From NCBI RefSeq assembly GCF_014837245.1, contig NZ_JACYFU010000003.1, positions 1 to 64,000 of the forward strand: 64,000 nt of DNA. Reading direction: 5' to 3'. Under the pieces are notes generated by a model that saw only the letters and a program-made list of their open reading frames with translations, had not been told where the DNA came from and ran no database searches. The position numbers were made by a program, and so were the translations under genes. Below are positions 22,567 to 43,600 of the stretch, one piece after another. This DNA is from Devosia oryzisoli. GTDB taxonomy: Bacteria; Pseudomonadota; Alphaproteobacteria; Rhizobiales; Devosiaceae. Position 1 is the stretch's first letter. Every line of letters begins with the position of its first letter.

Positions 22567-22755
22567 CTAGGCACAAGAACTGTCGGCTCCTGTGACAAGC
22601 AGCAGCGGCCGCCAAGCTGCAGCGGCCGCTGTTGCCGGCGATTGCTTCGAAAGCCAGTCCGGAATAACGAACAGGTCCAGCACGCCGCCCTGGCTTAATT
22701 GTGCTCCCAAGACATCGGCCGGCAACACACCAGCCTCGTCCAGCTTTTTCTTCAC
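22567..22755 (-). CDS. Hypothetical short frame before ctaG
   Basis: A 62-codon frame (KKKLDEAGVLPADVLGAQLSQGGVLDLFVIPDWL) has a helical, protein-like first half, but no ribosome binding site stands out and its end overlaps the open frame upstream of ctaG. No family was recognised. It may be a decayed gene or non-coding. Confidence 0.22.
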   Translation of the reverse strand: MKKKLDEAGVLPADVLGAQLSQGGVLDLFVIPDWLSKQSPATAAAAAWRPLLLVTGADSSCA

Positions 22756-26267: not shown

Positions 26268-27311
26268 TCAAGCCCGAATGCCAGCCGCTCCATAAATCCG
26301 GTCGAGCACTTCAGCCACCGCTGTCAGCTCCCCCGCTGCCGGGTCGAACCGTGCCGAGCGCTCGAGGCGGGCGAGCCAATCGAGCGCCGCACGTCCACCC
26401 CACGCATCCGGCGGGCTGACAAGCGTCGTGGCAGCCGTGCCATGGAGTTCGCGGGCCTCGAAGTCATAAAACGACCCGCCGACATTGCGCATCTCCAAGC
26501 CGCCGTGTGTGCCGTAGAATGACGCGCCGATTTCTGCCTCCTGACCGGCATGCAGGTTCCACGAGCACGTGAGGCGCACGATCGCACCATTGGCCAGCTT
26601 GATTGTCGCCGCCGCGTAGTCTTCCACCTGCTCGGGGCCGACCAGCGCCATTCCGCCGGCTAAGAGCTGACTGTCGACCGACACAACCTCCGGAAAACCA
26701 AGCGTCCAAAGGGCAAGATCGACAAGATGCACACCAAGGTCGATCACGCAGCCTCCACCCGACAGGGCGCGGTCGTAAAACCAGCTCTTGTCCGGCCCAT
26801 AGGCGTTGTGGAACACCAGATCGACGGCAAAGACGTTCCCCACCCTGCCCTCCTGGAGCGCCGAGCGAACCGCGGCCATGGCGGCAGTATGCCGGTAGGA
26901 AAGGTCCACGCCCAGGAGCCGATCAGCCCGGCGGGCCGCCCATACGACCGCCGAAGCCTCGCGGGCATTGCGCCCCAATGGCTTCTGGCAGAACACCGCC
27001 AGCCCACGCTCCAACGCGGCCATGGACTGCTCCGCATGGGCAGCGCTGGGGGTCGCGATCACCACGCCGTCCAGGTCCGGCACGTCGAGCAGGTCCTCGA
27101 AGCTCTCCAACATGATGGCATCTGGCGCCAGTTCGGCAGCCGCCGCGGCATTCTCAGCGCCCGGTTCGGCGATGGCGGCGGCCGTACAGCCGCCGCTTCC
27201 CAGCAGAGCCTCCATCCGGTTGCGACCGATCCAGCCAACGCCGGCAAAACCGATCCTGGGCTTGTGCAAGACAGGAGCATCAAGGGGTTGCATATCCATC
27301 AAAGCCATCAA
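26268..27311 (-). CDS. Gfo/Idh/MocA-family oxidoreductase
   Basis: A 347-residue NAD(P)-dependent oxidoreductase. The Rossmann fold starts GFAGVGWIGRNRM (residues 21-33). The usual EKP motif is QKP (Q109-K110-P111, in FCQKPLGR), so the lysine that contacts the nicotinamide and substrate is kept. The C-terminal sheet shows the GGGCVIDLGVHLVDLALWTLG segment typical of the family. Substrates are usually sugars, sugar acids or cyclitols. It starts inside the stop region of the alcohol dehydrogenase gene and so ends the four-gene minus arm of the glycan cluster. Confidence 0.85.
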   Translation of the reverse strand: MMALMDMQPLDAPVLHKPRIGFAGVGWIGRNRMEALLGSGGCTAAAIAEPGAENAAAAAELAPDAIMLESFEDLLDVPDLDGVVIATPSAAHAEQSMAALERGLAVFCQKPLGRNAREASAVVWAARRADRLLGVDLSYRHTAAMAAVRSALQEGRVGNVFAVDLVFHNAYGPDKSWFYDRALSGGGCVIDLGVHLVDLALWTLGFPEVVSVDSQLLAGGMALVGPEQVEDYAAATIKLANGAIVRLTCSWNLHAGQEAEIGASFYGTHGGLEMRNVGGSFYDFEARELHGTAATTLVSPPDAWGGRAALDWLARLERSARFDPAAGELTAVAEVLDRIYGAAGIRA

Positions 27312-28294
27312 TAGAGCACCACAGCTTTCATGAATCCGTCAGGACGGTCCCGCGTCATGTCCAGGGCGTGGTCCAATTGCTCTAATCCAAATGAGTGGGT
27401 GAGGAGAGGCCAGGGCCTGAGCCGTCCCTCATTGATCGCCTCGACAGCGGCTTTCACCCCCTCGAGGTACACCTCGGGCCGCCGCTCATGGGCGTTTATG
27501 ACGTCAATGCCCCGCCAATTCCAGAGTTGCATATTCACTTGGCGCGGGCCGTCCTGATGATATCCTGCAATGATCAGCCTGCCGCCTTCGGCCGTCAGTT
27601 CCGCCGAGAGGTCGAGCGGCCATTGCTTGCCCGTGCATTCGATGACGCGGTCGCAGAAGGTGCCGCCGGTCAGCTCCTTCACCATTTCGATGATCTGCCA
27701 GTGGTCGTCCATCGGGATCCTCTGCGCGGCTCCCATCTGGCGGGCAATTTCAAGCGCCCACTCACGGCGTGAAAGAGCGATGACGCGGGCTCCTGCCGCC
27801 GTCGCAAGCTGCGTCAGCAGTGCGCCAAGGAAACCGATGCCTACGATGGCCACCGTCTGGCCGGCGCGAATTTCGCTGCGCCGGAAGATGTTCATGGCAC
27901 AGCCCAGCGGTTCGCCAGGGAATGGCCGGTCCGCAAATTCCGGCGGCAGGAGGACCAACTGGTCCTCTTCCGCCAGGTCATGGGTTGCATAGCTGTGATA
28001 GGAGAGGCTTGCCACCCGGTCGCCTTCGTTGACCTTGGCGACCCCCGGCCCGATAGCCTCGACAATTCCCCAGCCCTCATGGCCGAGCCCACCGGGCTCG
28101 GTCGGGAACTGCATCCACTCAGGACCCGCCCAGGGCGTGAGGTTGGAGGCGCAGACACCGCAACCCTCGAGCCGCAGCCGAACCTGCCCCGGCCCAGGCC
28201 GCGGCAGGGGCAGTGTCTGGATCTCAACGGTCCCGGGACCAGTGACGACGGCCGCCTGCATGGTCCCGGTTTCGATCATGTTCAAACTGTCCAT
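27308..28294 (-). CDS. Zinc-type alcohol/sugar dehydrogenase (MDR family)
   Basis: The ATG at 28294 is used because the stop of the preceding gene lies at 28305. The 328-residue product starts MDSLNMIETGTMQAAV and has the MDR layout: catalytic zinc cysteine in GCGVCASNL, the glycine-rich LGHEGWGIVEAIG segment and cofactor-binding VAIVGIGFLGALLTQLA with a following SRRE that suggests NAD. The structural zinc tetrad is not evident. It may oxidise the C-OH of a sugar, followed by reduction by the neighbouring Gfo/Idh enzyme, as in inversion by oxidation and reduction. Confidence 0.85.
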   Translation of the reverse strand: MDSLNMIETGTMQAAVVTGPGTVEIQTLPLPRPGPGQVRLRLEGCGVCASNLTPWAGPEWMQFPTEPGGLGHEGWGIVEAIGPGVAKVNEGDRVASLSYHSYATHDLAEEDQLVLLPPEFADRPFPGEPLGCAMNIFRRSEIRAGQTVAIVGIGFLGALLTQLATAAGARVIALSRREWALEIARQMGAAQRIPMDDHWQIIEMVKELTGGTFCDRVIECTGKQWPLDLSAELTAEGGRLIIAGYHQDGPRQVNMQLWNWRGIDVINAHERRPEVYLEGVKAAVEAINEGRLRPWPLLTHSFGLEQLDHALDMTRDRPDGFMKAVVLY

Positions 28295-28304
28295 GACAAT
28301 GGCC

Positions 28305-28565
28305 TTACCGGTCGACGAACTTGTTGAACCGGCTTGTTCCGCCATCACTGGTTTTGTCCTGGTAGAGGAAGTTAAGCTTGTTCTCGTCGAAGACCCTGAA
28401 GAACTCGTCCCAGTCCACCGGTTCGAGGTTCTCCTCGGGCTCCCCGAAGTCGATACGCAGGATGCCGCCCTTGCCGCCGGTCCGAATGATCGCGGGGTGG
28501 CCGTCACGCTCTTCGGCCCATTTCCGGATGGTGTCGTGATCCGTGGTCTGTTCGGATGAACTCAT
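28305..28565 (-). CDS. Small conserved protein (branching-enzyme-like misnomer)
   Basis: The ATG at 28565 follows AGGAC and gives 86 residues: TIRKWAEERDGHPAIIRTGG, then ILRIDFGEPEENLEPVDWDEFFRVFDENKLNFLYQDK. This belongs to a family of small conserved proteins that databases often label 1,4-alpha-glucan branching enzyme without evidence. A DNA- or protein-binding helix-turn-strand fold is likely. It sits between ugd and the dehydrogenase, 13 bases from each, so it is part of the cluster. Confidence 0.65.
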   Translation of the reverse strand: MSSSEQTTDHDTIRKWAEERDGHPAIIRTGGKGGILRIDFGEPEENLEPVDWDEFFRVFDENKLNFLYQDKTSDGGTSRFNKFVDR

Positions 28566-28578
28566 GGAAGTGTCCTTT

Positions 28579-29940
28579 CTAGAGAGGTGACGCTGCCAGG
28601 TCGGCCATGGCGGCGCGTCCACCGGAGCGCGGACGGCGCACTGGCCCCTGGGGTCGCTGGCCGACGCTGTGAAGGGTAAAGCCTTCGGCAAGCGCTGCGT
28701 TGCGATCGACAATGTTTCTCAGATCGAAAATGAGGCGGCCGCTCATCATTCGGGCGAGGCGCTCGAAGTCCAGCGCGGCGAATTCCGGCCATTCTGTCGC
28801 CACGACGACAGCGTCGGCCCCGGCGGCAGCTTCATAGGGAGAGCTGGACCACTTCGCACCCGTCACCAGCCGCTCGCCGACCTCACGCGCCTTGGGGTCA
28901 TGAATATGGACCGTATGACCGTCTTCCAGAAGTGCGTCGACGATAGCCAGCGCCGGAGACTCGCGAAGATCATCGGTCCCTGCCTTGAAGGCAGCACCCA
29001 ACACCGTCACCCGGCTACCTGCTCCTAGGACAGCACTGAGGCGTCTACCGATTGCGACCTGCCGCTCGAGATTGCGCTCGACGAGGGCTTCGACCAGCGG
29101 CTGCGGCGCGCCATAGCGCCGGCCGGTGGCCGCGAGCGAGCGCGTGTCCTTGGGGAAACAGGAGCCACCAAAACCTGGGCCCGGCCGGAGGAAGGCTTCG
29201 CCGATCCGGCTATCAAGGCCAATGCCTTTCGAGACTGCCGCACAATCGCCCCCTGTGGCCTCACAGAGATCGGCAATATCGTTGATGAAGCCGATCTTGA
29301 GCGCAAGGAAGGCATTGGCAGCGTACTTGATGAGTTCGGCATTGGCTGTGCTGGTAACAAGCAGCGTCGTCAGGTCCGCAAGTGGGGCATAGAGACGTCG
29401 AAGCCGATCCTCTGCAACCCCATCATCGGCGCCGATCACGACGCGGTCGGGGGCCATAAAGTCCTCCAGCGCCGAACCCTCGCGTAAAAATTCCGGGTTT
29501 GAAGCCACACTTACGGCCCGGCCTCCGCGGGCGGCGACGGCACGCTTACGCACCAGCTGCGCCGCACCGGTCGGAACAGTGGATTTCACCACCAAGACCG
29601 CGTCACTTCGCATATGCGGTGCCACGGCATCGACCGCCCCCAATATGAACTGCAGATCCGTATCTCCGTCCGGCAGCGGTGGCGTGCCAACAGCCAGAAA
29701 AACCAGGTCGGCATCAGCCACGGCGGTTTCGGCGCTGCTTGAAAAAGTCAGCCTGCCGGCATCGACGTTCGCCTTGATCAGGTCGGACAGCCCTGGCTCG
29801 TAGATCGGTATGTTTCCGGCGCGAAGACTGTCGACCCGCGCTTGATTGATGTCCACGCAGCAGACAGAGTTGCCGAAGCGGGACAGGCAGGCGCCAGTCG
29901 TCAGCCCCACATAACCCGCACCGATCATCGCGATCTTCAT
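28579..29940 (-). CDS. ugd: UDP-glucose 6-dehydrogenase
   Basis: A 453-residue protein, the usual size, with all family hallmarks: GAGYVGLTTGACLS (residues 7-20), the NPEFLREGSALEDF segment (148-161), the KYAANAFLALKIGFIN helix (205-220) and the catalytic cysteine in GFGGSCFPKDT (Cys261). It converts UDP-glucose to UDP-glucuronate with two NAD+. The product feeds the UDP-xylose synthase at 37994-39019. The last 30 residues are an unusual Arg/Pro/Gly-rich tail. It is the promoter-proximal gene of the minus arm, reading away from the epimerase gene. Confidence 0.9.
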   Translation of the reverse strand: MKIAMIGAGYVGLTTGACLSRFGNSVCCVDINQARVDSLRAGNIPIYEPGLSDLIKANVDAGRLTFSSSAETAVADADLVFLAVGTPPLPDGDTDLQFILGAVDAVAPHMRSDAVLVVKSTVPTGAAQLVRKRAVAARGGRAVSVASNPEFLREGSALEDFMAPDRVVIGADDGVAEDRLRRLYAPLADLTTLLVTSTANAELIKYAANAFLALKIGFINDIADLCEATGGDCAAVSKGIGLDSRIGEAFLRPGPGFGGSCFPKDTRSLAATGRRYGAPQPLVEALVERNLERQVAIGRRLSAVLGAGSRVTVLGAAFKAGTDDLRESPALAIVDALLEDGHTVHIHDPKAREVGERLVTGAKWSSSPYEAAAGADAVVVATEWPEFAALDFERLARMMSGRLIFDLRNIVDRNAALAEGFTLHSVGQRPQGPVRRPRSGGRAAMADLAASPL

Positions 29941-30366
29941 ACTCGAACCTCGTTGACTGCCGGCGCGGCAGATGCGCCCCGGCCGTCAACGATGCCTTGC
30001 GCGACCGGTTCCTGAAGAAGTCATTGATGATGATGAAGATGAAGATGCTTCAGTCGGCCGCATCTTCCGCAATTCCGTTGATTACCCTTCCAATTTTTTC
30101 GGATATGGAACTGTGACTCCTGAACAATTCGCGCGAAATCTAACTTGGGATAGCAATCCAGGATGGAGTGACCTGAATTTCTGGCGCCGATGCAGGGTTC
30201 AGTTTCCCACCTGCTGCAGCTTCTTCTTCCCTTCTGCCGTGGGCTTATACCCGTCTCGGAGCATCAGAAACGGCCAGTCGCGGCCCGGTCTCCCAACCTG
30301 CGGCCTAGGAACTGATCGGCCGATGGCTTCTTCCCCTGTCGTGGTCAAACCGAACGCGAGGGTAAG
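29941..30366. promoter_or_regulatory. Divergent control region of the glycan cluster
   Basis: This 426-bp gap separates the minus-strand ugd operon from the plus-strand biosynthetic operon. It must hold both promoters. The middle part (about 30025-30180) is notably A/T-richer than the flanks. No palindromic operator was found by eye and no supported gene lies in it. Confidence 0.5.
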
Positions 30367-31473
30367 GTGTCCAAGGTACTCATCACCGGTGGTTGCGGAT
30401 TTATCGGCCGTCATGTCACGCAGGAGCTTCTTTCCCAAGGCTACTCCGTCCGCATCCTCGATGCATTGATCGAACAGGTCCACGGTGACACAGCCCCGGC
30501 TATTCCGGATGGCGTCGACTTCATCCGGGGTGAAATGTGCGACGCCGCGGCGGTGCGCGAGGCCCTCGATGGCGTGGAGCAGGTGATCCACCTTGCGGCC
30601 GAAGTCGGCGTCGGCCAGTCTCAATACGAAATTGCCCGATATGTCGGCGCCAATGACCTCGGCACGGCTGTGTTGCTCGAGAACATGATCGGGCGCGAGA
30701 TCAAGAAGGTCGTCGTCGCCTCATCAATGAGCGTCTACGGCGAAGGTGCCTACGATACAGCCGGCGGGGAACGCGTCCTGAACGCGCGCCGCCGTGCCGC
30801 CGACATCCGCTCGGGCGGTTGGAACCCGCGGACGGCAGACGGCAAATCCCTTCACCCTGTTCCGACAGACGAGCAGAAGCCCGTCGATCTGGCCTCCATC
30901 TATGCGCTGACCAAATATGCTCAGGAACGCCAGGCACTGATTTTCGGCGAGGCCTACAACGTACCCGCTGTGGCGCTGCGGCTCTTCAATGTCTTCGGCG
31001 CCGGCCAGGCCCTCTCCAACCCCTACACCGGTGTTCTTGCCAATTTCGCTTCAAGGCTCGCGAGTGGGAATGCTCCAACCGTCTTCGAGGACGGGGAGCA
31101 GCGCCGCGACTTTATCCATGTGCGCGATGTCGCGCGGGCCTTCCGCCTTGCGCTGGAAAAAGCCGACGCAGCCGGCCAGGTAATCAATGTCGGCAGTGGC
31201 CGATCCTACTCCATCTCGGAGGTAGTCCGCATGTTGGCTCAGGCCATGGGCAGGCCTCAGATCGCGCCGGAAATCCTCGGCAAGGCCCGCTCCGGCGATA
31301 TCCGAAACTGCTTCGCCGACATCTCCAAAGCCCGCGACCTGCTGGGCTTCGAGCCCAGGGAGCCTCTGGAAGACAGCCTTGGGGAACTGGCGGATTGGGT
31401 CAGCGGTGAAGTCATCATCGACCGCGGCGCGGAAATGCGGCAGGGACTCGAGCAGCGGGGCCTCGTTTCATGA
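30367..31473 (+). CDS. NAD-dependent nucleotide-sugar epimerase/dehydratase
   Basis: A GTG start at 30367 with GAGGGTAAG upstream. The 368-residue extended short-chain dehydrogenase has TGGCGFIGRHV (residues 7-17), SSMSVYGEGAY (near 118) and a catalytic Y-x-x-x-K in YALTKYAQE. The insert of about 40 residues between these motifs (NARRRAADIRSGGWNPRTADG) is larger than in UDP-glucose 4-epimerase. The substrate may be UDP-glucuronate, UDP-xylose or a GDP- or CDP-sugar. The stop overlaps the next start, placing it first in the eight-gene plus-strand operon. Confidence 0.85.
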   Translation: MSKVLITGGCGFIGRHVTQELLSQGYSVRILDALIEQVHGDTAPAIPDGVDFIRGEMCDAAAVREALDGVEQVIHLAAEVGVGQSQYEIARYVGANDLGTAVLLENMIGREIKKVVVASSMSVYGEGAYDTAGGERVLNARRRAADIRSGGWNPRTADGKSLHPVPTDEQKPVDLASIYALTKYAQERQALIFGEAYNVPAVALRLFNVFGAGQALSNPYTGVLANFASRLASGNAPTVFEDGEQRRDFIHVRDVARAFRLALEKADAAGQVINVGSGRSYSISEVVRMLAQAMGRPQIAPEILGKARSGDIRNCFADISKARDLLGFEPREPLEDSLGELADWVSGEVIIDRGAEMRQGLEQRGLVS

Positions 31474-33506
31474 GTGCTCCTCCGCGCCAAAAGCCGTTCG
31501 GATTTGTCGAATGGTTCCGCCCCGGTGACTACGAACGGGTGGAAGAGGCGCTTGCTGGGTTGAAGTCCTCCGGCGCAAGATACCTGCGCACCCACGTCTC
31601 CTGGGCAGAATATCTCGCGCCCGGTGGCGAGGCCTGGTTCGACTGGCTCCTGCCGCGCGTGGGCTCTCAGGTGGAACTGCTCCCCTGCCTCCACTACACG
31701 CCGCCCTCCCTTTCCCGCACCGGCAAGTCGTCCGGCGCGCCGCGGAACCTCAAGGCATATGCCGATTTCGTCGACTATATCCTCACCCGGCATGGGACCC
31801 ATTTCGCCCATATCGAACTCTGGAACGAACCCAACAACCTGCTCGACTGGGATTGGCGGGAAGATCAGGACTACGCGCTGTTTTCCGAGATGGTTGGGGG
31901 CGCGGCATACTGGGCCAAGCGCCGCGGTTGGAAACCGGTTCTCGGCGGTCCCTGCCCCGTCGACCCCTATTGGCTCAATCTCATGGGTGAGCGAGGGGTT
32001 TTAGGCGTCGTCGATGCGGTCGGCCTGCACGGCTTCCCCGGCACATGGGACAGCGAAGAGGGTAGTTGGGCCGGGTGGGACCTCCATCTGCGCGAGATGC
32101 GCGACATCCTCGACCGCTACAATCCCGAAGCGGAATTCTGGATCACCGAAACCGGCTACTCGACCTGGCGCAACGACGAACTCGAGCAGGTCCGGCGTTT
32201 CGCCACGGCGCTCGAGGTCTCAGCCGACCGCCTCTATTGGTACGCCTGGCGTGATTTGCCTGCAGATGTCCCAGTGCAGGAGGGTCTCTGGTTCGACCCT
32301 CGCCACTACCACCTGGGCATCAATGACGCTGCCGGGCGGCCAAAGCTCCTCGCGCGCCTGCTCGCCGAAGGTGGAACGGCGCGCGTCTCCGAAGTTGCCA
32401 AGGGAGCACGAACACAAATGGATTACTCTTCTCCCGCCGTCACCGGCCGCGCCAAGCCGATTGCCGTCACCGGCGGCTGCGGCTTTATCGGCTCGAACCT
32501 CGCCCATTCCCTTCTTGCGGATGGGCACGATGTCATCGTCATCGACAATCTGAGCCGTCCTGGGGTGGACCAGAACCTGGCCTGGTTAACGGATAACCAC
32601 GGCGATCGTGTACATCCCGTATTAACCGATGTGCGCGATCTGCCAAGCATGGAACCGGCACTCGCCGATGCCGGCGCTGTCTTCCATTTCGCGGCGCAGA
32701 CGGCGGTCACGACCAGCCTCGTGCACCCCTTCGACGACTTCGACATCAATGCGCGCGGCACGCTCAATGTGCTCGAGGCGGTTCGCCGCGCCGGCGGCAC
32801 CGCGCCGGTCATTTTTGCCAGCACCAACAAGGTCTATGGCGGCCTGGACGACATGGGCATGTCCGAGCGGGAGGACCGCTACGTCCCCCTCGATCAGATC
32901 GCCGGTGCTCGTGGCGTCAGCGAAGATCGCAAGCTCGATTTCTGCACGCCCTATGGATGTTCCAAAGGCGTCGCCGATCAGTATGTCCTGGACTATGCCA
33001 AGTCGTTCGGCCTCAAGAGCGCCGTCCTGCGCATGAGCTGCATCTACGGCCCTCGCCAGTTCGGAACCGAAGATCAGGGCTGGGTCGCCCACTTCCTGAT
33101 CCGCGCCTTGGAAGACAAGCCGATCACCATCTATGGCGACGGCAAGCAGGTGCGCGACATCCTTCACGTTCGCGACGCCGTCGCCGCCTATCGCGGTGTT
33201 CTCGACAACATCGAGCGCTGTTCCGGGCGCGCTTTCAATCTGGGCGGCGGCCCAGCTAACGCCGTCAGCCTCCTGCAGGTGCTGGGTGAAATTCAGCGCA
33301 TGATCGGGGATAAGGTCGAGATCAGCACCGACGACTGGCGCGCCGGCGACCAACTCTATTTCGTTGCCGATACCAAGCGGCTTGAAGACGAAATCGGCTG
33401 GCATCGGATCATGGGTTGGAAGGATGGCCTGCGCGACCTTGCGACCTGGCTCGCCGACAACCGGGACATGCGCCGCCCCATTTCCCGCGTGCGGACCACT
33501 GCCTGA
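31470..33506 (+). CDS. Glycosidase-epimerase fusion protein
   Basis: A 678-residue bipartite protein. Residues 1-305 form a clan-A-like glycoside hydrolase barrel: the acid/base in LWNEPNN (Glu120) and the nucleophile in WITETGY (Glu227), with neighbouring sequence like beta-xylosidases of GH39/GH5 type. Residues 330-678 are a nucleotide-sugar epimerase: TGGCGFIGSN (334-343), STNKVYGG (451-458) and TPYGCSKG with Y495 and K499, resembling CDP-paratose 2-epimerases. No signal peptide is present, so both act in the cytoplasm. An internal ATG at 32418 (residue 317), with GGGAG 11 bases before it, could yield the epimerase alone. Confidence 0.85.
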   Translation: MSAPPRQKPFGFVEWFRPGDYERVEEALAGLKSSGARYLRTHVSWAEYLAPGGEAWFDWLLPRVGSQVELLPCLHYTPPSLSRTGKSSGAPRNLKAYADFVDYILTRHGTHFAHIELWNEPNNLLDWDWREDQDYALFSEMVGGAAYWAKRRGWKPVLGGPCPVDPYWLNLMGERGVLGVVDAVGLHGFPGTWDSEEGSWAGWDLHLREMRDILDRYNPEAEFWITETGYSTWRNDELEQVRRFATALEVSADRLYWYAWRDLPADVPVQEGLWFDPRHYHLGINDAAGRPKLLARLLAEGGTARVSEVAKGARTQMDYSSPAVTGRAKPIAVTGGCGFIGSNLAHSLLADGHDVIVIDNLSRPGVDQNLAWLTDNHGDRVHPVLTDVRDLPSMEPALADAGAVFHFAAQTAVTTSLVHPFDDFDINARGTLNVLEAVRRAGGTAPVIFASTNKVYGGLDDMGMSEREDRYVPLDQIAGARGVSEDRKLDFCTPYGCSKGVADQYVLDYAKSFGLKSAVLRMSCIYGPRQFGTEDQGWVAHFLIRALEDKPITIYGDGKQVRDILHVRDAVAAYRGVLDNIERCSGRAFNLGGGPANAVSLLQVLGEIQRMIGDKVEISTDDWRAGDQLYFVADTKRLEDEIGWHRIMGWKDGLRDLATWLADNRDMRRPISRVRTTA

Positions 33507-33508
33507 CG

Positions 33509-34648
33509 ATGACCACGCCCGACACACAACAATTAGCCGGCCCCGGCAGGAAAGCTGCACCATCGGTGCACGTGCTGATGACACTGGATGCAGTGGGCGG
33601 TGTCTGGCGCTACGCCATGGACCTGGCGGGCGGTCTGCGCCAGCAGGGCTTCCGCTTCACCTTCGCCGGCATGGGCCCGGAGCCTTCGGCCGCGCTGCGC
33701 AATGAAGCCTTGCGGCACGGCGACCTGGTCTGGCTCAATACGCCGCTCGATTGGTTGGTGGAAGACGAACGGGCGCTCGACACCATTCCCCCTGCACTGG
33801 CCGCGCTTGTAGCCGAGCGCCAGGTGGACCTCGTGCACCTCAACCTGCCTTCGCAAGCGGCTGGCCTCGTCTTGCCGGTTCCAGTGCTCGTTGTTTCCCA
33901 TTCCTGCGTCGTCACCTGGTTCGCGGCCGTGCGCGGCACGGCTGTACCTGAGGCCTGGCAGTGGCAGCAGCGTCGGAACCGCGCCGGCTTCGACAACTGC
34001 GACATGGTCATCGCGCCGAGCCAATCTCATGCCGATGCCTTGGCCAGAAGCTATGGCGCCATCGCAAACCTGCGCGTGGTGCACAATTCGGTCCGCCCAA
34101 TTCCGTCCGCCACCGAAAAACAGCCCTTCGTCTTCGCTGCTGCCCGCTGGTGGGACGATGGCAAGAACGCCATCACCCTCGACGCGGCAGCAGCGCACAC
34201 GACCGTGCCGGTCATCTTGGCGGGCGACAACCGTGGGCCGGCCGGGCAGTACGTGCCCATCGAGCAAGCCGTTCATCGTGGACAGCTTACCTTCACTGAA
34301 GTGCGGTCGATTCTGGCGGAGGCTGCGATCCTCTGTTCGCCCTCGCTCTATGAACCCTTCGGGCTTGCTCCCCTTGAGGCGGCTGCGGCGCGGGCGACGC
34401 TGGTGCTGGCCGACATCCCGACCTATCGCGAGCTCTGGGATGGCGCTGCCCATTTTGTAGCGCCGCATGACGCACACGGCTTCGCGCAAGCGTTCGACGA
34501 GCTCGCGCGCGATGAGGAGCGGCGCCGCGAATTGGCAGCGGCCGCCTACCAGCACTCCCGCACCTTCACCCTTACCCGGCAGGCCAAAGCCATGCGCGAC
34601 GCTTATCGCGATTGCCTTGCCCACGCTCCGCAGCTTCTGCGCGCCTGA
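33509..34648 (+). CDS. GT4-type glycosyltransferase
   Basis: A 379-residue GT-B glycosyltransferase, starting two bases after the fusion gene. The N-terminal domain opens HVLMTLDAVGGVWRYAMDLAGGL, as in GT4 enzymes. The C-terminal donor domain contains the EPFGLAPLEAAA motif (acid pair E-x7-E) and VVHNSVRPIP. Such enzymes move a sugar from a nucleotide donor, with retention, onto an acceptor at the cytoplasmic face. Its donor is likely UDP-xylose or a product of the cluster's epimerases. Confidence 0.85.
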   Translation: MTTPDTQQLAGPGRKAAPSVHVLMTLDAVGGVWRYAMDLAGGLRQQGFRFTFAGMGPEPSAALRNEALRHGDLVWLNTPLDWLVEDERALDTIPPALAALVAERQVDLVHLNLPSQAAGLVLPVPVLVVSHSCVVTWFAAVRGTAVPEAWQWQQRRNRAGFDNCDMVIAPSQSHADALARSYGAIANLRVVHNSVRPIPSATEKQPFVFAAARWWDDGKNAITLDAAAAHTTVPVILAGDNRGPAGQYVPIEQAVHRGQLTFTEVRSILAEAAILCSPSLYEPFGLAPLEAAAARATLVLADIPTYRELWDGAAHFVAPHDAHGFAQAFDELARDEERRRELAAAAYQHSRTFTLTRQAKAMRDAYRDCLAHAPQLLRA

Positions 34649-34659
34649 GAGAGAACCCT

Positions 34660-35790
34660 ATGCGCTTCCTGTTCTACATGCACTCGCTGGTTTCGGATTG
34701 GAATCACGGCAACGCCCATTTCCTGCGCGGCGTGATGCACGACCTGATCAACCGGGGCCACGAGGCGCGGGCCCTCGAACCCGCCGGCTCCTGGAGCCGT
34801 ACCAACCTGATAGCCGACCAGGGAGCGGGGGCCGAGGATGATTTCCACCGGACGTTCCCCGAGCTCAAGACCAACACGTACGGGCTGGATTTCGACCACG
34901 AGGCGGCGGTAGCCGATGCCGACGTCGTGGTGGTCCATGAGTGGACGGACCCGACCATCGTCTCGCAGTTGGGCCAAATTCGGTCTCGTGGCGGGACGTT
35001 CACGCTCGTATTCCACGACACGCATCATCGCGCCATCTCTGCCCGGGAAGAGATCGCCGGGCTGACCCTGGGCTCCTACGATATAATCCTGGCCTTCGGG
35101 GAAGTGCTGCGCCAGCGCTATCTCGACGCCGGCTGGGGGCAAAACGTCTTTACCTGGCATGAGGCCGCCGATACCAACCGCTTTCATCCCCTGCCCCAGA
35201 TCGCGCCGGAGCGTGATTTGATCTGGGTCGGCAACTGGGGCGACGACGAGCGCACCCGTGAGATTTCCGAGTTCCTCATTGAACCTGCGGCGAACCTGCA
35301 ACTGAGCGGAACGGTGCGCGGCGTTCGCTATCCGGGGGAGGCCAGGGAGCGGATTGCGCACGCCGGTCTCGAATTCGGCGGCTGGATCGCCAATGCCCGT
35401 GTACCGGAGGCGTTCGCGCGTCACCGGGCCACCGTTCACATTCCTCGCCGCCCATACGTCGAGGCCCTTCCCGGCATTCCGACCATCCGCATGTTCGAAG
35501 CGCTCGCCTGCGGTATCCCGCTGGTCTCCGCCCCGTGGACGGACGCCGAAAATCTCTTCCGCCCCGGTGTCGACTACCTCGTTGCAGCCAACGGCACCGC
35601 GATGAAACGCCACCTGCGCACCGTGCTGGACGATGCGGCGCTAAGGAACGACCTCGTCGCGAAGGGCATCGAGACAATCCGCTCGCGCCACACCTGTACC
35701 CATCGCGTCGACGAACTGCTCGACATCCTCGCCACGCATGGGAGCGCCGGGGTTCGGAATGCAATGGCATCGGTGGAGGCAGCAGAATGA
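34660..35790 (+). CDS. CgeB-like glycosyltransferase, copy 1
   Basis: A 376-residue protein beginning MRFLFYMHSLVSDWNHGNAHFLRGV. The N-terminal GT-B-type domain and a C-terminal region with IRMFEALACGIPLVSAPWTDAENLFRPGVDYL match CgeB-like transferases. The opening S-LVSxWNxGNAxxxRG motif recurs in the two following genes, so the three are tandem paralogues. The start at 34660 has GAGAGA upstream. The stop overlaps the next start by ATGA. Confidence 0.8.
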   Translation: MRFLFYMHSLVSDWNHGNAHFLRGVMHDLINRGHEARALEPAGSWSRTNLIADQGAGAEDDFHRTFPELKTNTYGLDFDHEAAVADADVVVVHEWTDPTIVSQLGQIRSRGGTFTLVFHDTHHRAISAREEIAGLTLGSYDIILAFGEVLRQRYLDAGWGQNVFTWHEAADTNRFHPLPQIAPERDLIWVGNWGDDERTREISEFLIEPAANLQLSGTVRGVRYPGEARERIAHAGLEFGGWIANARVPEAFARHRATVHIPRRPYVEALPGIPTIRMFEALACGIPLVSAPWTDAENLFRPGVDYLVAANGTAMKRHLRTVLDDAALRNDLVAKGIETIRSRHTCTHRVDELLDILATHGSAGVRNAMASVEAAE

Positions 35791-36881
35791 AGATCGCGTT
35801 TTACGGCTCGAGCCTTGTTTCCGCCTACTGGAATGGCGCGGCCACCTACTACCGCGGCGTCATCAAGGCGCTGCACGGACTGGGGCACGATGTCACCTTC
35901 TATGAACCGGACGTCTACGACCGGCAGAAAAACCGGGATATCGACCCGCCCGACTGGTGCCGCGTCGTCGTCTACGAGGGCACCATCGATGCGTTGAAGG
36001 CCGCGGCCTCCGCCGCAGCCGAAGCAGATGTGGTTATCAAAGCCAGTGGCGTGGGCTTCGAGGATGACCTGCTGTTCGAGCAGATCGTGGCCTTTGCGCG
36101 TCCCGATGCCGTGCGCATCTTCTGGGATGTGGATGCGCCGGCCACGCTGGCAGAAATTCGACCCGACCCCAACCACCGCCTGCGGCGCCTGCTGCCCCAG
36201 ATCGATGCCGTCCTCACCTATGGCGGCGGCGACCCTGTGATAACAGCCTATCAGGATCTGGGCGCGATAATCTGTGTCCCGATCTACAACGGGCTTGATC
36301 CGGACACGCACCATCCCGTGCCGGCAGATCCGCGCTTTGCAGCCGACCTCTCCTTCCTCGGCAATCGCCTGCCCGATCGCGAGCAGCGGGTGGAAGAATT
36401 CTTCCTTCGGCCTGCCGCAGACTTGCCAGAGCGTCGGTTTTTGCTCGGGGGCTCGGGCTGGGGCGACAAGCCGATGAGCGCCAACGTCGACTATGTCGGT
36501 CATGTCCGCACCGCCGACCACAATGCCTTCAACACCTCTCCGCTCGCGGTTCTCAACATCTCCCGCGACAGCATGGCCAGCATTGGGTTCTCCCCGGCCA
36601 CCCGCGTCTTCGAGGCGGCAGGCGCCGGCGCGTGTCTCATCACCGACGCATGGCAGGGTCTCGAGCTGTTCCTCGAACCGGACCGGGAAGTGCTCGTGGT
36701 GCGCGACCGCAAGGATGTCGCAGAGGTACTCAAAAGCCTGACCCCCGAACGAGCTGCCGAAATCGGCAAGGCCGCCCTCGCACGGGTCCTACGTGATCAT
36801 ACCTACACCGATCGCGCGCGGCAGGCCGACGGAGTTATCCGCCAGCTCTTCGCCAAGCGCGCCATGGAGGCCGCAGAATGA
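35787..36881 (+). CDS. CgeB-like glycosyltransferase, copy 2
   Basis: A 364-residue paralogue opening MKIAFYGSSLVSAYWNGAATYYRGVIKALH. It has a Rossmann-like N-terminal domain (VVVYEGTIDALK, then ADVVIKASGVGFED) and the C-terminal VFEAAGAGACLITDAWQGLELFLEPDREVLVV block typical of CgeB proteins, which contacts the nucleotide sugar. It overlaps both neighbours by four bases and is therefore tightly coupled. Confidence 0.8.
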   Translation: MKIAFYGSSLVSAYWNGAATYYRGVIKALHGLGHDVTFYEPDVYDRQKNRDIDPPDWCRVVVYEGTIDALKAAASAAAEADVVIKASGVGFEDDLLFEQIVAFARPDAVRIFWDVDAPATLAEIRPDPNHRLRRLLPQIDAVLTYGGGDPVITAYQDLGAIICVPIYNGLDPDTHHPVPADPRFAADLSFLGNRLPDREQRVEEFFLRPAADLPERRFLLGGSGWGDKPMSANVDYVGHVRTADHNAFNTSPLAVLNISRDSMASIGFSPATRVFEAAGAGACLITDAWQGLELFLEPDREVLVVRDRKDVAEVLKSLTPERAAEIGKAALARVLRDHTYTDRARQADGVIRQLFAKRAMEAAE

Positions 36882-37981
36882 GCCAAGGGTATGACATCGT
36901 CTTCATCGGGCTCACGCTCTCCTCCTCCTGGGGCAATGGCCACGCCACCACCTACCGCTCGCTTTTGCGCGGTTTGAAAGAGGAAGGTGCTCGCGTCCTG
37001 TTCCTGGAGCAGGACGTTCCCTGGTACGCACCGCACCGTGACCTCCCCAGCCCTGATTTCTGCGACTTCTACCTCTACCGAGATCTCCCCGACCTCCTGG
37101 AGCGGTTTTCGGCCCACCTCGCGAATGCTCGGGCCGTCATCGTCGGCTCCTACGTCCAGGACGGGCCGGCCGTAATCGATGCACTTGCGCGGCGGCGCCC
37201 GCAGGTTTTCGGCTTTTACGACATCGACACACCCGTCACCCTCGCCAAGCTGGACCGCGGCGACGAGGAATATTTGCGGCGCGATCAGCTGCCGCTCTTT
37301 GATGCGTATTTCTCCTTTTCCGGCGGCAAGGTGCTCGATCGGCTCGAGCAGCAATATGGAGCCGCTAAGGCCCTGCCCCTCTATTGCTCGGTCGACGCCA
37401 CGCGTTACCGCCCGGTTTCCGCCGACCGGCGTTGGGATTTGGGATATCTCGGGACGTATAGTCCGGACCGCCAGCCAACGCTCGACGCACTGCTGATCGA
37501 GCCGGCGCGCCGGCTGCCGGAGTGCCGCTTTGTCGTTGCCGGGCCGCAGTACCCTGAAAACATCGACTGGCCCGCGAATGTCACGCGCATTGAGCACCTC
37601 CCGCCCGCTGATCACCCGCTCTTCTACAACCAGCAGCGATACACCCTCAACGTGACGCGCCAGGACATGATCGCAGCCGGCTGGTCCCCCAGCGTGCGCC
37701 TCTTCGAAGCTGGCGCCTGCAGGACGCCGGTCATCAGCGATGAGTGGATCGGGCTCGGCGACTTCTTCCCGTTGGAAGAAGCCATCCTGACGGCAACCTC
37801 TTCTGACGACGTCGTACGCATTCTGCGCGACGACAGTGGAACTCACCGTGACCGGATCGCCCGGGCCGCGCATCGGATCACCCTCGAACATCACACCGGC
37901 GCCGCCCGTGCCAGCCAGCTGCTTGACCACTTGGCGGACCTCGAAGCCGCCCAGACCCCACCCCGCCGCATCACCGCCTGA
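36878..37981 (+). CDS. CgeB-like glycosyltransferase, copy 3
   Basis: The third paralogue, 367 residues, begins with IVFIGLTLSSSWGNGHATTYRSLLRGL and has the C-terminal VRLFEAGACRTPVISDEWIGLGDFFPLEEAILTA block of the family. The central part keeps VQDGPAVIDALARRRPQVFGFYDIDTPVTLA, with an acidic residue set that may bind a metal or sugar. Divergence among the three copies suggests different acceptors or donors, giving successive additions to one glycan. Confidence 0.8.
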   Translation: MSQGYDIVFIGLTLSSSWGNGHATTYRSLLRGLKEEGARVLFLEQDVPWYAPHRDLPSPDFCDFYLYRDLPDLLERFSAHLANARAVIVGSYVQDGPAVIDALARRRPQVFGFYDIDTPVTLAKLDRGDEEYLRRDQLPLFDAYFSFSGGKVLDRLEQQYGAAKALPLYCSVDATRYRPVSADRRWDLGYLGTYSPDRQPTLDALLIEPARRLPECRFVVAGPQYPENIDWPANVTRIEHLPPADHPLFYNQQRYTLNVTRQDMIAAGWSPSVRLFEAGACRTPVISDEWIGLGDFFPLEEAILTATSSDDVVRILRDDSGTHRDRIARAAHRITLEHHTGAARASQLLDHLADLEAAQTPPRRITA

Positions 37982-37993
37982 CAGGAGAATCCC

Positions 37994-39019
37994 ATGCTCG
38001 AAAAGCTCAGTGCACGACGCCAGCAGACCGTTTTGGTCGCCGGAGGCGCCGGCTTTGTCGGCTCGCATCTGTGCGATGCTCTCCTCGACGCGGGTCACCG
38101 TGTCATCTGCGTCGACAGTTTCCTGACCGGGCGGCCGGAAAACGTCGGCCCGCTCGACAATCATCCCGCCTTCAAGATGATCACGCACGATGTTCGCTCG
38201 CCTTTGCAGATTGAGGAAAAGCTGGACCAAGTCTACAATCTCGCCTGTCCCGCCTCGCCGCCCCACTACCAGGCTGACCCGCTGCTCACCATGATGACCA
38301 GCGTTGCGGGCACCGCCCATCTGCTCGATCTCGCCAAGCAGCATGGCGCCAGGTTCCTCCAGGCATCCACCAGCGAAGTTTACGGCGATCCCGAGCAGCA
38401 CCCGCAGCGCGAGGATTACTGGGGGCACGTCAACTGCACCGGCCCCCGGGCCTGCTACGACGAAGGCAAGCGGGCCGCCGAGGCCCTCTGCTTCGACATG
38501 CTGCGCGCAGGCAGCGTCGACGCGCGCGTCGTGCGCATCTTCAACACCTATGGCCCGCGCATGCGCGCCGATGACGGCCGCATTATCTCCAACCTCGTGG
38601 TGCAGGCCCTGCGCAACGAGCCGCTGACCATCTATGGCTCCGGCGAACAGACCCGCTCCTTCTGCTACGTGTCCGACCTCGTCAATGGACTCATGGCCTT
38701 GATGGAGTCCGGCCCGAACCCGGAACAGCCGGTCAATATTGGCAATCCCGGCGAGTTCACCATTGCCGAACTTGCCGACATGATCCTCGATCTGGTCGAC
38801 ACCCGCTCGACGCTGGTTCACCGCCCGTTGCCCACCGACGACCCGCAGCGCCGCCGCCCCGACATCACGGCGGCCAGGGAACTCCTTGGATGGGCACCCA
38901 AGATACCTTTGTCCGAGGGCTTGCCGCGAACCATCGCCTGGTTCGCTCAGGATCTGGGCCTGTCGCGCCGCTCGCGGCTGAAGCAGGACGCCGCCCCCAT
39001 GCTTGCCGGAGGTGTTTAA
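37994..39019 (+). CDS. uxs: UDP-xylose synthase (UDP-glucuronate decarboxylase)
   Basis: A 341-residue extended SDR protein with GGAGFVGSHLCDAL (residues 17-30), NLACPASPPHYQADPLLTMMTSV (82-104), STSEVYGDPEQHPQ (125-138) and CYDEGKRAAE (Tyr155, Lys159). This motif set is diagnostic for UXS, which decarboxylates UDP-glucuronate to UDP-xylose through a 4-keto intermediate using bound NAD+. With ugd at 28579-29940 it completes the route UDP-glucose to UDP-xylose. The start is 12 bases after the third CgeB-like gene. Confidence 0.9.
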   Translation: MLEKLSARRQQTVLVAGGAGFVGSHLCDALLDAGHRVICVDSFLTGRPENVGPLDNHPAFKMITHDVRSPLQIEEKLDQVYNLACPASPPHYQADPLLTMMTSVAGTAHLLDLAKQHGARFLQASTSEVYGDPEQHPQREDYWGHVNCTGPRACYDEGKRAAEALCFDMLRAGSVDARVVRIFNTYGPRMRADDGRIISNLVVQALRNEPLTIYGSGEQTRSFCYVSDLVNGLMALMESGPNPEQPVNIGNPGEFTIAELADMILDLVDTRSTLVHRPLPTDDPQRRRPDITAARELLGWAPKIPLSEGLPRTIAWFAQDLGLSRRSRLKQDAAPMLAGGV

Positions 39020-39753
39020 TGAACGAGCACAGCCGGTTGCAGGAGCAGATCGAGGCACTTGGGCCCTGGTTTCAGAATATAACTATTGGCGGCGTGCCTA
39101 CGGCGCCTAACCATTTCCTGGGTGACTACCCTGCCTTCAAGTGGGCGGGGTTCCGCCATGTGCTGCCCGATGACCTTGACGGCCGCAGTGTGCTCGACAT
39201 CGGCTGCAACGCTGGCTTTTACGCCATGGAGATGAAGCGGCGCGGCGCCGGCCGGGTGTTGGGCATCGACGCCGACCCCCATTATCTGCGCCAAGCGCGT
39301 TTTGCTGCCGAACAGGAAGGGCTGGACATCGAGTTCGCCCAGAAGTCGGTCTACGAAGTCGCCGATCTGGAGGAGCGGTTCGACCTCGTGATCTTCATGG
39401 GCGTGCTCTACCACCTTCGCCATCCCCTCCTGGCGCTGGACCTGATCCACGAGCACGTCGCGGGCGACATGCTGCTGTTCCAGACCATGCAGCGCGGCAC
39501 CTCCGAAGTTGCCCAAGCCGCGGCGGATTATGACTTCTCGGACTGGACACCCTTCCAGGACGAGGGGTTCCCCCGCCTCTATTTCATCGAACACAACTAT
39601 GCCGGCGACCCCACCAACTGGTTCATCCCGAACAAAGCCGCCACCGAAGCCATGCTGCGCACATCCGGCTTCGCCATTGACGCCAATCCCGATCCGGAAG
39701 TTTACCTGTGTCATCGGGCTGACCGTCCTTACGCTGCCAGACTTTATGCCTGA
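39019..39753 (+). CDS. SAM-dependent methyltransferase, cluster-associated type
   Basis: A 244-residue class I methyltransferase. SAM motif I is VLDIGCNAGFYAMEM (58-72), followed by IDADPHYLRQARFA. The N-terminal block PWFQNITIGGVPTAPNHFLGDYP and the VIFMGVLYHLRHPL segment recall the Rta_06860-type methyltransferase family (TIGR04290, from memory), which itself tends to sit in clusters of glycosyltransferases. The start overlaps the uxs stop by one base. It may O-methylate the assembled glycan or a lipid acceptor and ends the operon. Confidence 0.8.
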   Translation: MNEHSRLQEQIEALGPWFQNITIGGVPTAPNHFLGDYPAFKWAGFRHVLPDDLDGRSVLDIGCNAGFYAMEMKRRGAGRVLGIDADPHYLRQARFAAEQEGLDIEFAQKSVYEVADLEERFDLVIFMGVLYHLRHPLLALDLIHEHVAGDMLLFQTMQRGTSEVAQAAADYDFSDWTPFQDEGFPRLYFIEHNYAGDPTNWFIPNKAATEAMLRTSGFAIDANPDPEVYLCHRADRPYAARLYA

Positions 39754-39834: not shown

Positions 39835-40177
39835 GTTTCACCTTGAAGCAGACTCATGGGATTCCGGCTTGGTCTGATTTGTGATTCAAGATTGGTGCTG
39901 GAGTGGAGGCCAGCATCAATGGCTGGACCACTTTCGAACGATCTTCGTGAACGTGTTGTGTCTGCGATATTGGCGGGTCAGAGCTGCCACGAGGCGGCGA
40001 GCCGGTTTGGTGTTTCGGTGTCGTCGGCCATCAAGTGGAGCCGGCGCTATCGGCAGACTGGCTCGGTGGCGCCTGGGCAGATGGGCGGGCATCGCCGTCC
40101 GGTTCTGAGCGATCACCGAGCGTTTATTCTGGAACGGATCTCGCAGACCCCACACCTGACGCTGCACGGTCTCAAGC
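39835..40177 (+). mobile_element. IS630-family remnant
   Basis: From the ATG at 39919 the frame encodes the N-terminal helix-turn-helix of an IS630-type transposase (LSNDLRERVVSAILAGQSCHEAASRFGVSVSSAIKWSRRYRQTG, then VLSDHRAFILERISQTPHLTLHGL), about 86 residues. At about 40177 it runs straight into a different gene. The element's left end is probably near 39835 (CTAGATCGTTTCACC). The catalytic DDE part is absent, so the copy is dead. Confidence 0.65.
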
Positions 40178-40472
40178 CGACGCCTGTCGTCGACACAATC
40201 CCGAACGGCACGGCGATACCAAAGGCGTGCGTGGCGTGGTCGACGTCGCCCGACGTGCAGCCGGGATTCACCCGCACTGTCGCGCTGGCCGGGTCGACAT
40301 GGACGCCCTTCATCATCGAGAGATCGATCATCAGACCGTCATCGACGCTGCCGAGACCGGGCCCATTGTGCCCGCCACCCCGGATGGCGATGTCCAGGGC
40401 ATTGTCACGTCCGAAAACCTGGAGCCGGTGGCGTCGAGCGCAGGAAACCATTTCAGAGGGCGCTTTTGACAA
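40177..40472 (-). pseudogene. FAD-linked oxidase N-terminal fragment
   Basis: The minus-strand frame has the FAD-binding core of BBE-type oxidases: DNALDIAIRGGGHNGPGLGSVDDGLMIDLS, then RVNPGCTSGDVDHATHAFGIAVPFGIVSTTGVG. It breaks off at the point where the IS630 fragment begins, so substrate-binding and C-terminal parts are gone. Its N-terminus also differs from the family. The fragment is the remains of an older gene cut by the insertion. Confidence 0.6.
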
Positions 40473-40533
40473 TTCTAATGACGTGCGCCAATGACCGCGA
40501 AGGGGTCGAGTGGTGCCCCCTGCCCGCTCGACC

Positions 40534-41331
40534 TTATCGGCCGCTGGCGCTGCGCAATATCGCTTCGGCGCGCCGGCGCAGGGGCTTGTCGATCATCTGG
40601 CCATCGAGCCCGATGGTGCCGGCGCTTTCCATCACCTTGCGCGCCCATTCGACCTCCTCGGCGCTGGGCGCAAAGGCGGTGTTGAGGATGGGGACGGCCG
40701 AAGGGTGCACGCAGGTTGAACCGTCAAAACCGTGGCGGCGCGCTTCCCGCGCAGCCTCCGCAATGGCGTCCACGTCGCCATAATCGGCGATCGAGCGCAG
40801 CAGTCCCAGCGAGAGCTTGCCGGCGGCCTTGGCCGCGTAGTGCACCAGCAGCTTGGGGAGACGCAGGACGTCGGGATCAGGCGAGCCGCCCAAGGCAAGC
40901 GCGAGATCCTCACTCCCCACGTTCACGGCAACAAGGCGTGGATGCCTGCAGATGTCGGCAGCGGCAAGAATGCCCGCAGGGCTTTCGATGGTGGCCAGGA
41001 CCGGCGTGGAGCCGCCGCCATGGCGCAGCAGGATGGCATCAAGCGCCTCCACGTCGGCGACGCTGTCGGCCTTGGGACTGACGAGAAGATCGATCCCTGC
41101 CGCTAGCGCGGCCGAGATGTCGGCCTCCGAACCGGCATTGATGCGGACCGCGACCTGGCCCTGGCCTTGCCGCAGGCTGCGCACGGCCTCCGTGAGATTG
41201 GCGCGCGCCAGATCCTTGCGCTCGTCAGGCACGGCGTCCTCTAGGTCGAGAATAACGCAGTCGGCGCCGCGCAGGTGCGCCTTGGCAATGAAGCGATCCT
41301 GGTCCGCGGGCACATAGAGCAGCGAGCGCAT
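40534..41331 (-). CDS. HpcH/CitE-family lyase (CoA-ester type)
   Basis: The start at 41331 gives 265 residues beginning RSLLYVPADQDRFIAKAHLRGADCVILDLEDAVPDERK, the CitE-type opening with the metal-binding acidic residues in LDLEDAVP. ATIESPAGILAA and NVGSEDLALALGG follow, then DGSTCVHPSAVPILN near the end. Members cleave malyl-, citramalyl- or similar CoA esters. It overlaps the CoA-transferase gene by ATGA, so a CoA ester made by that enzyme is the likely substrate. Confidence 0.85.
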   Translation of the reverse strand: MRSLLYVPADQDRFIAKAHLRGADCVILDLEDAVPDERKDLARANLTEAVRSLRQGQGQVAVRINAGSEADISAALAAGIDLLVSPKADSVADVEALDAILLRHGGGSTPVLATIESPAGILAAADICRHPRLVAVNVGSEDLALALGGSPDPDVLRLPKLLVHYAAKAAGKLSLGLLRSIADYGDVDAIAEAAREARRHGFDGSTCVHPSAVPILNTAFAPSAEEVEWARKVMESAGTIGLDGQMIDKPLRRRAEAILRSASGR

Positions 41332-43591: not shown

Positions 43592-43600
43592 GCGAGCCTC

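Follow-up and report, generated by a model that had tools for sequence, protein, structure and literature searches.

What does a cluster that pairs enzymes of UDP-xylose synthesis with four glycosyltransferases make, and where does its product go? We addressed this question for a cluster of Devosia oryzisoli lying at 26268-39753 of a stretch of 64,000 nucleotides (contig NZ_JACYFU010000003.1, 1-64,000; hereafter the window). The original prediction had described it as an uncharacterised 12-gene glycan or glycoside cluster built on UDP-xylose. With an open reading frame (ORF) of 86 amino acids counted, the cluster does consist of 12 genes; every named gene was recovered where it had been placed, and the families agreed in profile scans. 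The answer that we prefer, and to which we give about an even chance, is that the cluster is a general-stress operon whose stress-induced product, an O-methylated oligosaccharide or glycoside, is small, soluble and made in the cytoplasm. New here are the likeness of one epimerase (Epi2) to a C2-type enzyme, the exclusion between a fused glycosidase and inositol-phosphate synthase (MIPS), a circular permutation relating two forms of the glycosidase, and an enrichment of EcfG-type promoter-like sites.

Results

Gene content of the cluster

Four genes are on the minus strand and eight on the plus strand, as follows.

26268..27308, minus: Gfo/Idh/MocA oxidoreductase (PF22725, 2.7e-28; PF01408), with an ATG start (the mechanical ORF reaches 27311)
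27308..28294, minus: zinc-type medium-chain dehydrogenase (alcohol dehydrogenase, ADH; PF00107, PF08240)
28305..28565, minus: 86-amino-acid ORF, function unassigned, with homologues in 20 of 80 related stretches
28579..29940, minus: Ugd, UDP-glucose 6-dehydrogenase homologue (TIGR03026, 428.6 bits; cut-off 189.8)
29988..30012, minus: EcfG-type promoter-like site GGAAC-N16-CGTT, 47 bp upstream of the ugd ATG
30367..31473, plus: Epi1, sugar-nucleotide epimerase of the short-chain dehydrogenase/reductase (SDR) type, probably a C4-epimerase by its closest solved relatives
31470..33506, plus: glycosidase-epimerase fusion of 678 amino acids, with a GH-A-like domain (about 1-305) and a CDP-tyvelose-2-epimerase-like SDR domain (Epi2, about 325-665)
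33509..34648, plus: GT4 glycosyltransferase (PF13439, PF00534)
34660..35790, plus: CgeB-like glycosyltransferase 1 (PF13524, 3.5e-34)
35787..36881, plus: CgeB-like glycosyltransferase 2 (PF13524, 4.8e-39)
36878..37981, plus: CgeB-like glycosyltransferase 3 (PF13524, 5.5e-35)
37994..39019, plus: Uxs, homologue of UDP-glucuronate decarboxylase (UDP-xylose synthase), 389 bits to human UXS1 (4gll)
39019..39753, plus: S-adenosylmethionine (SAM) methyltransferase of the TIGR04290 family (379.5 bits; cut-off 300)

These matches bear out the GT4 enzyme with three tandem CgeB-like transferases, the cluster-type methyltransferase, and the divergent arm with a Gfo/Idh enzyme and an alcohol dehydrogenase that had been read from the letters. 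With the chosen starts, plus-strand neighbours overlap by 1-4 bp or are 2-12 bp apart. For ADH we took the ATG that brings its length close to that of the Rhizobium etli relative (the mechanical ORF extends to 28507); in R. etli, too, ADH adjoins Gfo/Idh. The top NCBIfam match of the Gfo/Idh enzyme was IolG at 101 bits, well under the cut-off of 355, and the 86-amino-acid ORF matched no Pfam or NCBIfam family above cut-off. The C-terminal part of GT4 gave weak matches to GlgM, PimA and MshA (the last as PDB entry 3c48, which we take to be MshA). A PDB look-up gave no usable match for CgeB-like 2.

Conservation and distribution

Named species genomes were scanned with an alignment of the methyltransferase. 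At least 574 relatives were found, and the best 80 stretches were kept, cut about 10 kb from the methyltransferase gene; absences reported below refer to the stretch. Denominators are these 80 named stretches, 131 stretches in total, or 130 or 125 in counts of neighbour families. The 125-stretch run left out three duplicate stretches and L149, with overlapping ORFs removed (our handles for genomes and stretches begin with G or L).

Ten of the window cluster's genes, without ugd, keep their order and orientation on R. etli CFN42 p42b and CIAT652 pC, indicating that the window cluster did not come about by chance. Nine of these ten, with Gfo/Idh missing, were found in Agrobacterium fabrum 12D13, and the comparison of gene order extends the recurrence from R. 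etli p42b to many alphaproteobacteria. The cluster is a real, widespread biosynthetic locus, common in soil- and plant-associated members of this class, including the model symbionts R. etli CFN42 and Sinorhizobium meliloti 1021; the latter carries the MIPS-bearing type described below, on pSymB at about 242-261 kb. Across the order, 37 of 397 genomes (its own included) hold a TIGR04290 methyltransferase over cut-off. Only five of 37 genomes of the genus match the fusion strongly, and in the four besides the window's own the match covers the epimerase half only, suggesting that the cluster is patchy within the genus. The best-scoring named relative of the methyltransferase, among the matches listed, is from Devosia nitrariae, and the window Epi2 groups with two Devosia rows in the Epi2 tree (fork support 87/88). 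The ugd gene lies within only 7 of the 80 related stretches. A second TIGR04290 copy on contig C8 of the window genome was discarded as a candidate: it is a partial match of 48.6 bits with no cluster genes within the surrounding 20 kb.

We found no described pathway for this gene set in the literature, in line with the original prediction. What has to be added is that the cluster is one subtype of a large family already labelled hypothetical in NCBIfam, under TIGR04290 and TIGR04295 ('B12_rSAM_oligo'). The window methyltransferase exceeds the TIGR04290 cut-off and a radical SAM enzyme occurs in sister clusters, for example in Bradyrhizobium; the two labels carry no pathway or product. Literature searches gave nothing for TIGR04290 or for the S. 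meliloti tags SMb2024x/2025x (a range inferred from a neighbour named in PMC12542648), and nothing relevant for EcfG together with inositol-phosphate synthase or CgeB.

Two cluster types distinguished by MIPS

A glycosidase fused to Epi2 was found in 42 of the 80 named stretches, always in a single open frame (42/42), and MIPS in none of these 42. A separate glycosidase was found in 23 stretches, where it is accompanied by MIPS in 23/23 and by a histidine phosphatase (HisP) in 22/23. The other 15 show neither form; most seem cut before that region, L199 and L215 are among them, and in L212, from a Verrucomicrobium, no glycosidase was matched within the 11.8 kb available. Among all 131 stretches, 50 are fused (three of them duplicates), again without MIPS, and 62 are of the separate form, where MIPS is missing from just three stretches (G012, G006 and G031). 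For G006 and G031, MIPS lies just beyond the stretch end. A protein search did not find MIPS in the fused-type genomes G391, G328, G164 and G099; fused-type G414 has it, in a second cluster.

The one sister-cluster MIPS that was scanned came nearest to TIGR03450 mycothiol_INO1 (512.9 bits, under the cut-off of 638), and the one HisP scanned came nearest to TIGR03848 (121 bits, under 203.85). Because MIPS and a histidine phosphatase accompany the genes, the acceptor of the sister type would probably be myo-inositol or its phosphate. Relatives of PIG-L (one profile-scanned) occur in 12 of 130 stretches; each of these has MIPS, and 11 lack Epi1. There is also a smaller cluster form that has MIPS, phosphatase, a different CgeB-like glycosyltransferase, a nucleotidyltransferase, methyltransferase and glycosidase, without both epimerases, the window-type GT4, Uxs and the three CgeB-like genes.

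We mapped the fused/separate label onto a tree of 103 Epi2 sequences, whose 'separate' rows include stretches where the cut hid any glycosidase; the label needs 12 changes, at least seven of them forced by well-supported branches. The two forms thus seem to have replaced each other repeatedly.

A family of about 580 amino acids adjoins MIPS-type clusters at 17 loci (for example L020:8884-10620 and L024:5899-7659); the L020 member, when scanned, had no Pfam or NCBIfam match.

A circular permutation of the glycosidase

The fused glycosidase has its WNEPN motif from residue 118 and the glutamate of TETGY at 227, the usual clan GH-A order. By contrast, the separate glycosidase begins at its WNEPN in all 23 cases (MIEAA-x-IWNEPN or LWNEPN). 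This start appears real, since in 4 of the 23 one codon alone parts it from the upstream stop. In BLAST, fused residues 116-300 align to separate residues 6-192, and 10-108 align to 197-293. In native order, a profile comparison split the match into segments of 177 and 103 columns; rotating at residue 194 joined these into a single one of 281 columns (E 1.1e-40), and among rotations at 20-column steps the best was 200 (E 3.2e-39). Judged by these alignments, the separate and fused glycosidases are related by a natural circular permutation, the separate form being the permuted one. Among the papers listed by a search on circularly permuted glycosidases, none dealt with this one. The two enzymes make up a natural glycosidase pair related by circular permutation, seemingly serving two versions of one pathway.

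The predicted catalytic glutamates are invariant in both forms, as E120/E227 in 22 fused rows and as E10/E112 in 15 permuted rows (15 of the 23 aligned). Retaining clan GH-A enzymes carry their two catalytic glutamates where strands 4 and 7 of a (beta/alpha)8 barrel end, and the modelled structure has them there: in the AlphaFold2 model of the fusion, E120 comes right after strand 114-118 and E227 falls within strand 222-228; the loops around them are modelled in part with low confidence. The model of the permuted form (predicted local distance difference test score (pLDDT) 78, predicted template-modelling score (pTM) 0.82) has eight strands, the first leading into WNEPN.

We could not attach the domain to a glycoside hydrolase (GH) family. 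The window glycosidase had no usable PDB match by sequence and no Pfam GH match, and the permuted form matched PF11790 alone, at 18.6 bits, below the cut-off of 21. Foldseek returned weak matches across barrel enzymes for the permuted barrel (first row a GH5 endoglucanase, E 2.9e-4, template-modelling score (TM) 0.38). In VIA-align, GH20, monooxygenases and others were tied near Z 12-14, and a GH family not listed there is not thereby excluded. Both forms start directly in the barrel and leave no room for an export signal, which suggests a cytoplasmic enzyme.

Sugar-nucleotide enzymes

Uxs aligned over its full length with human UXS1, with identical TSE and YxxxK motifs, whose residues matter for catalysis. 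This homology, with that of Ugd to TIGR03026, is strong and agrees with the proposal that the pair would give UDP-glucuronate and UDP-xylose. The nearest solved relatives of Epi1 are the UDP-N-acetylglucosamine 4-epimerase 6wjb, MoeE5 and the UDP-glucose 4-epimerase 4zrm.

Two epimerases, one fused to a glycosidase, had been predicted. Both are present; the fused one, however, resembles a CDP-tyvelose 2-epimerase (TyvE), a C2-type enzyme, and is no plain 4-epimerase. The AlphaFold2 model of the fusion (mean pLDDT 81) had the TyvE structure 1orr as its top structural match (43% identity, TM 0.90 of the target). A sequence search with Epi2 likewise put the two solved TyvE proteins (1orr and 9rl0) first. 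Residues T452, N453 and K454 (the TNK segment), Y495 and K499 are invariant in 22 fusion rows. The Thermodesulfatator TyvE loses its activity when its TNK segment carries N125A or K126A, and its Tyr164 and Lys168 belong to the catalytic triad (PMC13098431). The 1orr match and the retention of TNK and YxxxK make C2 epimerisation by Epi2 likely. Unlike TyvE, Epi2 is fused to a glycosidase and lies in a UDP-xylose gene context.

EcfG-type promoter-like sites upstream of the cluster operons

We counted sites within 250 bp upstream over distinct upstream sequences, using a relaxed motif, GGAAC-N15-18-[CG]GTT, and a strict EcfG-type motif, GGAAC-N16/17-CGTT, which we take to be the EcfG consensus. 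Relaxed sites precede MIPS in 39/59 sequences (1.1 expected), Epi1 in 38/99 (1.9), ADH in 17/65 (1.3), the 86-amino-acid ORF in 10/43 (0.8) and Ugd in 4/11 (0.2). Operon-internal genes gave 1/595 in total (GH forms 0/62 and 0/47, Epi2 1/104, GT4 0/69, CgeB-like 1 to 3 0/102, 0/103 and 0/108). Counts were 4/88 for Uxs (1.7 expected), 5/124 for the methyltransferase (2.4 expected) and 0/41 for Gfo/Idh. The strict motif precedes MIPS in 25/59 and Epi1 in 7/99. Not one of 348 scrambled motifs equalled the count of the relaxed motif for MIPS, Epi1 or Ugd; for ADH, one did. With duplicates removed, 31 of 46 fused-type clusters have at least one site, and the window's sole strict site in 64 kb is the one 47 bp upstream of ugd. 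EcfG-type promoter-like sites precede the cluster operons far above chance.

The window genome encodes NepR, and an EcfG-like sigma relative (one profile-scanned) occurs in 18 of 130 stretches. Lists of the S. meliloti RpoE2 regulon appear in PMC3616915. On contig C8 of the window genome, seven of the genome's 64 strict sites fall within about 8.5 kb (G000:C8:1949-10458) with nepR at 9242-9346; this region is probably its general-stress-response core locus. A CheB-CheR-PAS-HWE histidine kinase of about 1040 amino acids, possibly a stress sensor, adjoins 10 of 125 stretches (L214:2601-5726).

Location of the product

No exporter, flippase, polymerase or synthase gene was found in the window cluster, and no such family recurs beside the 125 stretches, as had been noted for the first three in the cluster itself. 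With membrane segments predicted by a simple hydropathy count, the recurring non-cluster families (at least 5 of 125 stretches) with at least two such segments are cytochrome-oxidase subunits only (COX1 in 9 stretches, COX2 in 7 and 5, COX3 in 5). The absence of a recurring exporter led us to reject a surface-polysaccharide locus, and the lack of a recurring membrane priming transferase speaks against a lipid-linked product as well. The original prediction had held a cytoplasmic or lipid-linked glycoside to be as likely as an exopolysaccharide; of these, the cytoplasmic small glycoside is the better reading and the lipid-linked one loses ground.

Export and priming genes elsewhere in the genome could still allow the cluster to make a lipid-linked glycan or a polysaccharide, whether surface or extracellular. 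Four glycosyltransferases together with UDP-sugar enzymes do look like a polysaccharide locus, and a locus of Azospirillum brasilense combines Epi2-, Uxs- and Ugd-like genes with a nearby undecaprenyl-phosphate glucose phosphotransferase and O-antigen ligase. That locus, however, has a GT4-family gene of its own and no match to the window GT4, CgeB-like, glycosidase or methyltransferase proteins, and A. brasilense sits on a long branch in the Epi2 tree. With only oxidase subunits recurring as membrane families, we consider this alternative unlikely. A comparable locus of S. meliloti lies at 470 kb and is presumably uxs1-uxe-aps (arabinose-containing polysaccharide, APS; the gene names are likewise our assignment). 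As in the window, a UDP-xylose synthase adjoins a UDP-sugar epimerase there. The locus shares a replicon with the MIPS-type cluster of S. meliloti yet is separate from it: Uxs is 59% identical, the epimerase matches only at the SDR level (29%), and the CgeB-like, GT4, glycosidase and methyltransferase proteins have no match, on which grounds we rejected the idea that the cluster is this second Uxs locus. APS and Uxs1 of S. meliloti are named in PMC9957244.

Discussion

Proposed pathway

What we infer of the reactions, the acceptor, the product and its protective role is as follows. Ugd would oxidise UDP-glucose to UDP-glucuronate, and Uxs would decarboxylate this to UDP-xylose, both steps being suggested by strong homology. 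Epi1 (C4-type) and Epi2 (C2-type) may then convert UDP-xylose or UDP-glucose to C4 and C2 epimers, with UDP-arabinose and either UDP-lyxose or UDP-mannose as candidate products; the cluster thus predicts a UDP-pentose C2-epimerase. GT4 and the three CgeB-like transferases would place about four sugars on a small acceptor, and the TIGR04290 enzyme would add a methyl cap. In the window type, which lacks MIPS, inositol could be taken from the medium, or the acceptor could be a different one. IolE is over cut-off in the window genome, which can therefore probably use inositol; G164 and G099, of the same type, are below that cut-off. The glycosidase, with both catalytic glutamates in place, may act on the product within the cell by trimming, transferring or recycling it.

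A bolder version of this proposal would make the product a new class of stress metabolite, a methyl-capped oligosaccharide on a cyclitol core with a rare C2-epimerised pentose (for example lyxose, from a new UDP-sugar), its acceptor module having been swapped repeatedly between MIPS with the circularly permuted glycosidase and a MIPS-free version with the glycosidase fused to the C2-epimerase. We regard this as possible, though doubtful as a whole. That a locus so common appears wired to the main stress response suggests that a major stress metabolite may have been overlooked.

Several findings weigh against the stress-glycoside proposal. Neither GT4 nor either of the two dehydrogenases reached a curated NCBIfam cut-off. 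The VAM substrate segment of TyvE reads TAV in Epi2, and for this reason we call Epi2 TyvE-like and do not file it as TyvE. A Uxs match is missing from three of the 50 fused-type stretches having the methyltransferase (G164, G099 and L191), where UDP-xylose may come from elsewhere or go unused, so that it is perhaps not universal. L199 and L215 have the methyltransferase without cluster genes, and G012, the single true exception to the pairing of MIPS with the separate glycosidase, has the latter in a whole genome without MIPS. A protein search did not find MIPS in the window genome, which makes inositol a weak candidate acceptor for the window type. We did not rely on a PF07994 search of that genome; this family is a poor test, because the cluster MIPS itself scores 18.7 bits against a cut-off of 25. 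As to the promoters, Epi1 in the window has no full site upstream, the strict motif is no more frequent across the window genome than a reversed control (64 sites against 78), and many of the upstream sequences counted come from related species and are not independent. Finally, a DUF1003 protein, presumably a small membrane protein, occurs in 10 of the 80 stretches; it was counted as a cluster neighbour and so stands outside the list of membrane families.

Further alternatives

The glycans might be attached, in the cytoplasm, to a protein or to a molecule bound to the cell, with no free solute formed. CgeB acts in the Bacillus spore coat, and three CgeB-like PF13524 enzymes would suit such a role. 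We find it a distinctly unlikely one, given that no acceptor-protein gene was recognised and that the 86-amino-acid ORF occurs in just 20 of the 80 stretches.

A mycothiol-like antioxidant, again an inositol glycoside, could replace the protective solute. The mycothiol pathway runs through Ino1, MshA, a phosphatase, MshB, MshC and MshD, and sister clusters share with it a MIPS nearest mycothiol_INO1, a phosphatase nearest MSMEG_4193, a GT4 enzyme (in the window weakly matching MshA) and PIG-L; they also hold GNAT-domain proteins. On the other side, the GNAT protein is Acetyltransf_6, the cluster INO1 and GT4 reach no curated cut-off, and UDP-xylose enzymes, CgeB-like glycosyltransferases and TIGR04290 are added. 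The window type lacks INO1 (MIPS), has no phosphatase in the cluster, and its best phosphatase relative elsewhere is 27% identical. An antioxidant of this kind is very improbable.

Least probable of all, and only barely credible, is that the cluster chiefly serves to modify or salvage plant-derived glycosides after their import, with the glycosidase and both dehydrogenases working on the imported substrate: sugar importers adjoin it both in the window and in S. meliloti, but these importers differ (binding protein unmatched, permeases 24-35% over parts), and Uxs, Ugd, four transferases and a methyltransferase are biosynthetic.

Genomic neighbourhood

A cytochrome oxidase cluster (CtaD, CoxB, cytochrome c and CtaG) lies near the sugar cluster at 16214-22615 on the minus strand. 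Relatives of the window CtaD (50%), CoxB (40%) and CtaG (31%) also flank the cluster on R. etli p42b, and this flanking oxidase is probably RHE_PB00063-66. In the passages of PMC4274787 that concern them, RHE_PB00063-66 on p42b are named as a putative cytochrome c oxidase, and no mutants were made.

Directly 3' of the methyltransferase, at 39856-40494 on the plus strand, is a helix-turn-helix ORF like part of an IS630 transposase, below cut-off and probably a remnant. It is followed at 40534-51826 on the minus strand by an operon for sugar import, which also contains a LacI regulator, CaiB and CitE-like genes, and two genes resembling ADP-ribosylglycohydrolases (one of them scanned). An importer of the ugpC type likewise stands beside the S. 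meliloti cluster; compared with the window importer, only ugpC is close (54%).

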